From: Nocardioides caldifontis
GTDB taxonomy: Bacteria > Actinomycetota > Actinomycetes > Propionibacteriales > Nocardioidaceae
Assembly (NCBI RefSeq): GCF_008087345.1
Contig: NZ_VHIB01000001.1
Coordinates: forward strand, 744,001 to 808,000
Reading direction: 5' to 3'
Length of the DNA stretch: 64,000 nt
The notes below the pieces were generated by a model that was not told the origin of the DNA, ran no database searches, and saw only the letters and a program-made list of their open reading frames with translations. Both the position numbers and the translations under genes were made by a program. This document shows, in pieces, positions 18,023-19,703 of the stretch; the stretch's first letter is position 1; each line of letters starts with the position of its first letter.

Positions 18023-18144
18023 TGTCGAGCCGCCCTTCGTGGCGCGCGGTCTGGTGTCGAACCGCCCTTCGTGGCGCGCATCCTGGGTGTCGAGCCGCCC
18101 CTCGTGGCGCGCGGTCTGGTGTCGAGCCGCCCTTCGTGGCGCGC
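18023..18144 (+). repeat. Family-A repeat array, four direct copies
   Basis: Four copies of a 25-bp unit (TGTCGARCCGCCC followed by YTCGTGGCGCGC) start at 18023, 18055, 18088 and 18120, so the period is 32-33 bp with 7-8 nt spacers such as GGTCTGG. It fills the gap between the convergent dcd and DUF4097 genes. No spacer diversity, so not CRISPR. Confidence 0.88.
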
Positions 18145-18155
18145 GCCGGAGCCCG

Positions 18156-18932
18156 TCAGGGCGCGGCGGTGAGCTGGCGCAGGTAGACGTCGCCCGTCGC
18201 GGTCCGGGCCGTGACCGCCACGTGCGGCTGGCCGGGGGCCGGCTTCCCGAGGGGCGCCAGGTCCGAGACGATCCGACCGGTGCCGGTGGTGATGTCGGTC
18301 CACACCGGGGTCGACTCCGGCACGCCGACGCGGATGTCGCCGAACCCGTTCTTGAACGTCGCCTCGCCGTTGGTGAACCGGCCGATGCCCAGGTCGCCCG
18401 TGCCGCTTCGGACCGCCACCTTCCCGTCGACCTCACCGAGCGTGACGTCGCCGGTGCCGGTGGTGAGCCTGGCGTCGCCGTGGACGTGCTCGACGGCGAC
18501 CGTGCCGGCTCCGGTCTTCAGCTGGCCGCCGCCGCTGAGCTCGCGCACGCGGATCGCGCCGGCACCGGACTTCACGACCGCGGAGCCGAGCACCTGGTCG
18601 AGCACGACGTCGCCCGCCCCCACGGCGAAGCGGACGTGCTCGAGGGCGCCGGTGGTGGTGAGGTCGCCGGCGCCCAGCTTGCCGGTCAGCGAGCTGCGGC
18701 GGGGGAGGCGTACGTCGACGTCGACCGGTGCCGGCGGCCGGTGGAACCCGGCCCTTCGCGGACCCTTGACGACCACGCGGTCACCCTCGGTCTCCACCGT
18801 GACCGCGGCGGCCTCGACGCCCTCCACCCGGACGACGACCTGGTCGGTGTCGTCCGTGGTCACGGCGAGCCGTGCGCTCTGGAGGTCGACGTGGAGCTGG
18901 CGCGGCCCGTCGGCCGGGAACTCGTGCTGCAT
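18156..18932 (-). CDS. DUF4097 beta-strand repeat protein
   Basis: 258 residues of short repeated beta strands with the recurrent pattern GAGD/GTGD and V/L alternation (LGAGDLTTTGALEHV, VGAGDVVLDQVLG, KTGAGTVAVEHVHGDA, TTGTGDVTLGEVDG, RSGTGDLGIGRFTNG), typical of the DUF4097 family whose role is unknown. No signal peptide or membrane segment. It is the second gene of an operon: the RHH/HicB-like gene ends 23 bp upstream. Homologous pairs occur across actinobacteria (general knowledge), so the two proteins probably work together. The ATG follows AGAGGAGTCCCCG. Confidence 0.85.
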   Translation of the reverse strand: MQHEFPADGPRQLHVDLQSARLAVTTDDTDQVVVRVEGVEAAAVTVETEGDRVVVKGPRRAGFHRPPAPVDVDVRLPRRSSLTGKLGAGDLTTTGALEHVRFAVGAGDVVLDQVLGSAVVKSGAGAIRVRELSGGGQLKTGAGTVAVEHVHGDARLTTGTGDVTLGEVDGKVAVRSGTGDLGIGRFTNGEATFKNGFGDIRVGVPESTPVWTDITTGTGRIVSDLAPLGKPAPGQPHVAVTARTATGDVYLRQLTAAP

Positions 18933-18955
18933 CGGGGACTCCTCTGGTGGGTGGG

Positions 18956-19453
18956 TCAGATCCAGCCCGACATGCGGCGGCTGGGGCGGTCGGCGGAGAA
19001 CGGGATGCTCGAGACGTCCATGTCGAACGCCGTCGTGCCGCGCTGCGTCGCGGCGCGCACGGCCTGCACGATCCAGTTGTTGAGCGAGTGGCCGGTCGCG
19101 CTGGCGAGCTCCTCGGCGCGGGACTTCACCGACTCGGGGAGCCGGAGCGTGATCCGGGCGACCGGACCGTCCTCGGGATCCGCCGGCTCCGCCGACGTGG
19201 GCGGGGGCGGCTCGGGCAGGTCGACCACCATCTCCGGGTCGCGGCCCTGGAGGCGTACCTCGACCGTGCCGCTCGGGAGCTCGGCGGTCACCTCGGCAGC
19301 GGCCTGGGAGAGCACCTCGAGCACGAGCAGCCGGACCGACGGTTCGAGCGCCACGAGCATCCGCTCGGCGCCAGCACGCATCTCGGGCCCCCCGATCTCG
19401 GCTGCGGCGAGGAGGTCGCGGCGGAGACTCTCGGCGTACGGCGTGATGTCCAT
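18956..19453 (-). CDS. Ribbon-helix-helix (HicB-like) regulator paired with DUF4097
   Basis: 165 residues. The C-terminal RITLRLPESVKSRAEELASA, then TGHSLNNWIVQAVRAAT, is an RHH DNA-binding domain like the C-terminus of HicB antitoxins. Residues 1-90 (DITPYAESLRRDLLAAAEIG onwards) are a helical domain unlike the HicB fold, and no HicA toxin is adjacent. The start is taken as ATG 19453, since CATAGT lies 7 nt upstream (leaderless); a GTG at 19462 is an alternative. A perfect 19-bp palindrome overlaps the promoter, so the protein probably represses its own operon. A classic toxin-antitoxin role is unlikely. Confidence 0.8.
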   Translation of the reverse strand: MDITPYAESLRRDLLAAAEIGGPEMRAGAERMLVALEPSVRLLVLEVLSQAAAEVTAELPSGTVEVRLQGRDPEMVVDLPEPPPPTSAEPADPEDGPVARITLRLPESVKSRAEELASATGHSLNNWIVQAVRAATQRGTTAFDMDVSSIPFSADRPSRRMSGWI

Positions 19454-19464
19454 GTGCACCACTA

Positions 19465-19483
19465 TGACACCACTGTGGTGTCA
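19465..19483. promoter_or_regulatory. Palindromic operator of the HicB-like/DUF4097 operon
   Basis: TGACACCACTGTGGTGTCA is a perfect 19-bp palindrome with a single central base. It overlaps the CATAGT -10 box at one end and lies 11 bp from the ATG at 19453. RHH proteins bind just such dyads in their own promoters. Confidence 0.75.
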
Positions 19484-19520
19484 CCACAAGGTCAAACGGC
19501 GGCAAGGTGGTGTCGGCGGA

Positions 19521-19690
19521 TGTCGAGCCGCCCTTCGTGGCGCGGCTCGAACGGTCAGACCCGCGCAGGTGGACGAGCTTTCGCGCGTCCGGCCGTAGAT
19601 GGCGTCAAGGCTCGTTCACGTGCGTGACCCCCGGCACGCCACGAAGGGCGGTTCAACGCCCAGGACGCGCGCCACGAGGGGCGGTTCGAC
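19521..19690. repeat. Family-A repeats, one direct and two inverted copies
   Basis: A direct copy at 19521-19544, then two reversed copies at 19634-19657 and 19667-19690, the last ending 13 bp before the stop of the next minus-strand gene. With the array at 18023-18144 they bracket the HicB-like/DUF4097 operon on both sides. Confidence 0.82.
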
Positions 19691-19703
19691 GTGGAAGAGG
19701 CGG

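Follow-up and report, generated by a model that had tools for sequence, protein, structure and literature searches.

Two adjacent minus-strand genes of Nocardioides caldifontis, here called P1 and P2, encode a ribbon-helix-helix (RHH) protein and a DUF4097 protein of the toastrack superfamily. As the DNA site of the P1 promoter recurs at drug-type exporters in relatives, the pair probably acts as a stress-responsive regulator and not as toxin and antitoxin. With confidence that is evenly balanced, we propose that P1 would repress its own promoter and that its toastrack partner would set how active it is, exporters being the output in the full form of the system. The pair in the window (the whole 64,000-nucleotide stretch of DNA that was analysed) would represent a solo form, because its own promoter is the only detectable target.

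The putative autorepressor P1 (165 aa; 18956–19453, minus strand) is followed downstream, after 23 nt, by P2 (258 aa; 18156–18932, minus strand), whose ATG is preceded by the Shine-Dalgarno-like sequence AGAGGAG. The AlphaFold model of P1 runs from two helices and a hairpin through a disordered linker to the RHH domain and a disordered tail. The N-terminal domain (aa 1–78; 19220–19453, minus strand) consists in this model of helices 4–20 and 23–58 and strands 63–69 and 72–78, and a search with the whole P1 model gave no convincing solved-structure match for it. The DNA-binding domain (aa 97–142; 19028–19165, minus strand) has the strand-helix-helix motif of RHH transcription factors; its approximately 45 residues align with PutA, AtaR, CopG, Arc and VapB-type domains [Z ~5], and Foldseek likewise places it with Arc, AtaR and VapB-type domains. 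The match to HicB [PF05534, 8e-6, above the Pfam cut-off] is confined to aa 100–132 in the C-terminal half, and the preliminary description was correct both in limiting the RHH to this part of P1 and in recognizing a same-strand pair of a HicB-type and a DUF4097 gene.

P2 was identified as possessing the DUF4097 motif [PF13349, 3e-10, 40 bits versus a cut-off of 22.9]. Its AlphaFold model is a very confident beta-solenoid (pLDDT 96.7), closest in Foldseek to 4QRK and 4OPW, which serve Ravi et al. (PMC11237479) as references for the Toastrack fold; motif and beta-helix fold together place P2 in the toastrack superfamily. NCBIfam LiaG [NF049997] matches it weakly, at 45.5 bits against a cut-off of 285, and P2 therefore does not count as a LiaG equivalog. 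No signal peptide or membrane segment is apparent in its sequence. The window P2 lacks about one 18-residue rung of the solenoid that is common to most relatives (alignment columns 204–221). Among relatives P2 is the less conserved of the two proteins, with 26–42% identity to the window protein as against 48–66% for P1.

The region upstream of P1 was described initially as a leaderless promoter overlapped by a 19-bp palindromic operator. The perfect palindrome TGACACCACTGTGGTGTCA does exist (19465–19483) and occurs nowhere else, either in the window or in the rest of the 4.8-Mb genome. By itself it is unremarkable, because perfect palindromes with 9-bp arms are near the chance level in the window (10, versus a mean of 5.9 in 20 shuffles); the sign of function is conservation, and what is kept across the 186 unique P1 promoters is a different unit. 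This is a tandem array of TGRYRYCA in an 11-bp register, extending from the -35 to the leaderless ATG, and the palindrome was accordingly dropped as the conserved operator. In the window it is made up of unit 1 (TGACACCA, 19476–19483, minus strand, -30 to -23 from the ATG) and unit 2 (TGGTGTCA, 19465–19472, minus strand, 11 bp downstream of unit 1). A degenerate unit 3 (TGGTGCAC, 19454–19461, minus strand) lies 11 bp past unit 2 and abuts the start codon. Units 1 and 2 occupy the 17-nt spacer behind the -35 element TTGTGG (19484–19489, minus strand; TTGACA in orthologues). Based upon spacing and conservation, CATAGT (19461–19466, minus strand), 7 nt upstream of the ATG, is the presumed -10 element; a scan for the strict promoter consensus found no -10 here.

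A pair of units at exactly 11 bp is present in 163 of the 186 promoters, with harmonics at 22 and 33, and unit starts cluster around -30, -19 and -7 from the ATG. Nearly all have TTG at -36 or -35. The leaderless character of the promoter is borne out by this geometry and by conservation: the start is an ATG at the same place in 184 of 186 orthologues, and none of the 186 promoters has a Shine-Dalgarno sequence before P1. In the window genome the tandem operator occurs once, at P1–P2. Six scattered sites found there when up to 2 mismatches were allowed were unconvincing as additional targets.

The family-A repeats (TGTCGARCCGCCCYTCGTGGCGCGC), which flank the pair on both sides as claimed, occur in both orientations at a spacing of about 33 bp (18023–18144, 19521–19545 and 19634–19691). 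They are not part of the operon, because 190 matches with at most 2 mismatches are found genome-wide and none in 29 relatives, the same genus included. Judged from the genome sequences they are a lineage-specific repeat expansion, and as genome-wide repeats unrelated to the pair they were rejected as a component of the system.

P1 was found in 143 of the 394 Actinomycetia genomes sampled (about a third of these class-mates), which agrees with the wide retention in actinobacteria that had been claimed, and in 42 of 58 relatives; the window genome has a single copy. All 30 P1 loci retrieved from relatives have P2 next, as do 77 of 79 named loci, mostly from Nocardioides, with Georgenia and Intrasporangium also represented. 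One of the two misses is a locus cut by a contig end and the other is probably a gene-call artefact. P1 appeared to stand without P2 also in L097, L116 and L125, where P2 is present and was missed by gene calling or was too divergent for the first profile. Checked across lineages, the co-location of the pair holds, intact P1 being followed by P2 in every lineage examined with the exception of one clade. A frequent address, stable on the chromosome of many genomes, is Fe-S oxidoreductase–P1–P2–dcd. In the P1 tree the window protein lies near those of other Nocardioidaceae and of Georgenia. The Georgenia P1 (L143, L145) groups with it inside Nocardioidaceae-type sequences, a placement which suggests transfer between orders.

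The tandem operator accompanies P1, being present in 131 of 143 P1-positive versus 37 of 251 P1-negative genomes (Fisher 1e-54, a value which ignores kinship among the 394 genomes). P1-positive genomes within the order mostly have one or two tandem sites each. Part of the matches in P1-negative genomes belong to FitA-like RHH genes of 76 aa (L223 in G072, L227, L234–L238 and L242), which have the same layout of tandem TGRYRYCA, 11-bp register and leaderless ATG, with TGGCGCCA or TGGTGCCA as units; in G072 such a gene, arranged as TGRYRYCA, 11 bp, ATG, is followed by a PIN gene. The operator and ATG combinations in f7 genomes without P1 were likewise assigned to this different family. Several other sites were set aside: those in G333 and G336, without an adjoining P1, have no leaderless start at the operator; single-strand sites in G010 and G019 lie away from any start codon and were taken as chance; and a second operator-like site in the 8-Mb f3 genomes, about 690 bp farther upstream, falls within an SDR gene, in codons for DITVTSIAPG, and was also put down to chance. 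A full -35/operator array precedes a small basic ORF of 53–67 aa with no Pfam match in G049 (L036:4894–5118), and in G378 (L246) an operator stands before a hydrophobic ORF of 41 aa, which is followed by a cytochrome P450-like gene.

The C-terminal tail of P1 (RPSRRMSGWI; 18959–18988, minus strand), which the preliminary description did not include, is conserved in the family and is a candidate P2-docking peptide. Its consensus is R-[MIVL]-x-G-W-[VA]-R, with the close variants GYGR and GKGxS. The tail is present in 178 of 179 P1 genes that are followed by a toastrack, from many families, and in none of the five complete P1 genes that are not. On this ground it probably docks P2, while the RHH would serve DNA independently. 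The sole exception among the 179 is in G005 (L020/L048), where P1 has no tail and P2 is in pieces. L112, one of the five genes without P2, still has the operator, so the DNA site and the coupling to P2 look separable. Since the five tail-less P1 genes form one clade of the P1 tree, the correlation may rest on a single loss event, and perhaps tail and P2 were lost together once. The tail could also serve some other purpose, for example as a degron or in membrane contact.

That the pair has no assigned function, as was stated initially, is nearly right, but a third partner, a DrrAB-type ABC-2 exporter, occurs in many lineages, and RHH-toastrack-ABC operons had been noted earlier (PMC11237479). 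Of 186 loci, 21, drawn from many families, have a DrrA-type ABC ATPase gene behind P1–P2, and a gene for an ABC-2 permease often comes after it. In the P1 tree these loci all fall within a single large sub-branch that does not include the window P1, and the window organism may therefore have no exporter control of this kind; neither ABC ATPase nor permease genes lie beside the window pair, and most Nocardioidaceae loci have no exporter gene adjoining the pair. Exporter genes also carry the operator in trans. In G005 it lies directly before the leaderless start codon of a DrrAB operon, and in G052 and G067, which belong to different families, it lies at or within 2 nt of the leaderless ATG of MFS antiporters that are TIGR00900-like, their matches falling below the TIGR00900 cut-off. 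A reversed-pattern control of operator plus ATG gave about 1 match in the 394 genomes. G005, G052 and G067 are all lineages with solo-type pairs.

We would picture the regulation as follows. P1 dimers would sit side by side on tandem TGRYRYCA units, one per 11-bp step. As these units extend over the spacer between -35 and -10 and over the beginning of the leaderless transcript, P1 would in this way shut off its own promoter. The disordered tail (..RMxGW[VA]R) would dock on P2, as its co-occurrence with the partner suggests, and P2, a scaffold of the LiaG/PSP-associated superfamily, may alter the grip of P1 on DNA upon an envelope or drug signal. The output in the full form would be a DrrAB-type ABC-2 exporter in the operon, or DrrAB or MFS exporters elsewhere under the same operator. 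The more specific proposal, that the tail is a dedicated toastrack-docking motif and that the toxin of an antitoxin-style circuit has been replaced by a beta-solenoid scaffold setting an RHH repressor, with exporters controlled across Actinomycetia, we hold somewhat more tentatively, at a little under an even chance.

By profile alone P1 reads as a HicB-type antitoxin adjoining a DUF4097 protein, and one might take P2 for an unrecognised toxin. The RHH fold is common to many antitoxins, and the FitA-like RHH gene and PIN gene of G072 share the operator style. P1 indeed resembles HicAB in that PF05534 covers its RHH, but its neighbour is a toastrack, and no match to HicA [PF07927] was found in the whole genome. 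No Pfam match to the partial RNase H-like N-terminal domain of HicB was detected in P1, which is modelled there as two helices plus hairpin. P1 shares with the FitA/VapB/AtaR-type antitoxins the RHH domain, and with the G072 gene the operator layout, but differs in carrying the RHH C-terminally behind another N-terminal domain, in having no toxin, and in its toastrack-linked tail. The beta-solenoid P2 is unlike known toxins, P1 exists without P2, and the pair keeps its address beside dcd and the Fe-S oxidoreductase in many genomes. We regard a toxin-antitoxin pair as very improbable; the absence of a toxin, noted at the outset, is supported, and the toastrack fold is consistent with the scaffold or sensor module then suggested. 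A somewhat better, still unlikely, candidate is that the tail directs P1 to degradation or to the membrane, its joint absence with P2 being a coincidence of one lineage. Short C-terminal peptides can be degrons, and the tail-less genes are indeed one clade; against this, P2-paired loci of many families keep the tail almost without exception, and the GW, GY and GKG variants are all still paired with P2.

The strongest competitor, which we consider possible though clearly less probable than the regulator proposed here, is that P1 represses only itself and that the effector is P2, acting beneath the membrane as a scaffold like those of PSP/Lia systems. The tail would then bind P2 only for feedback on P2 dosage, and solo lineages would control neither an exporter nor a wider regulon. 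Most solo-type genomes have one operator each, which would fit, as would the lack of an adjoining exporter gene in the window and most Nocardioidaceae loci, and toastracks have been proposed as scaffolds (PMC11237479). The trans exporter sites of G005, G052 and G067 speak against it, since these are solo-type lineages, and so does the lower conservation of P2 relative to P1, which would be unusual for a sole effector.

Among known systems P2 shares its fold with the LiaG-type toastracks of Lia/PSP systems (4QRK, 4OPW), but is partnered by an RHH repressor, with no two-component system or PspA alongside. The nearest precedent is a single sentence of Ravi et al. 2024 on an actinobacterial toastrack-ABC operon in which an RHH replaces the GntR factor; the toastrack of the GntR version is membrane-anchored (PMC11237479). 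Compared by description, such RHH-Toastrack-ABC ATPase-permease operons contain the same kinds of domain, whereas the window pair has no ABC genes and P2 no visible membrane segment, and the account of these operons in PMC11237479 mentions no operator. Our literature search found no functional work on the P1–P2 pair and no paper pairing DUF4097 with HicB. Within the literature searched, the following are new: the architecture of the operator and how widely it occurs, the tail motif with its link to the toastrack, the exporter sites in trans and, as a correction, the finding that no toxin goes with the HicB-like P1 gene.

If the proposal is correct, many genes of this kind would be regulators tied to drug-type exporters, not antitoxins, and some of them perhaps lie in antibiotic gene clusters. 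In the lunaemycin cluster the first gene encodes a 177-aa protein without known function and the second a DUF4097 protein (PMC9866976); the two may be such a P1–P2 pair. The operator, the tail motif and the exporter targets make the function of the DUF4097 protein directly testable.
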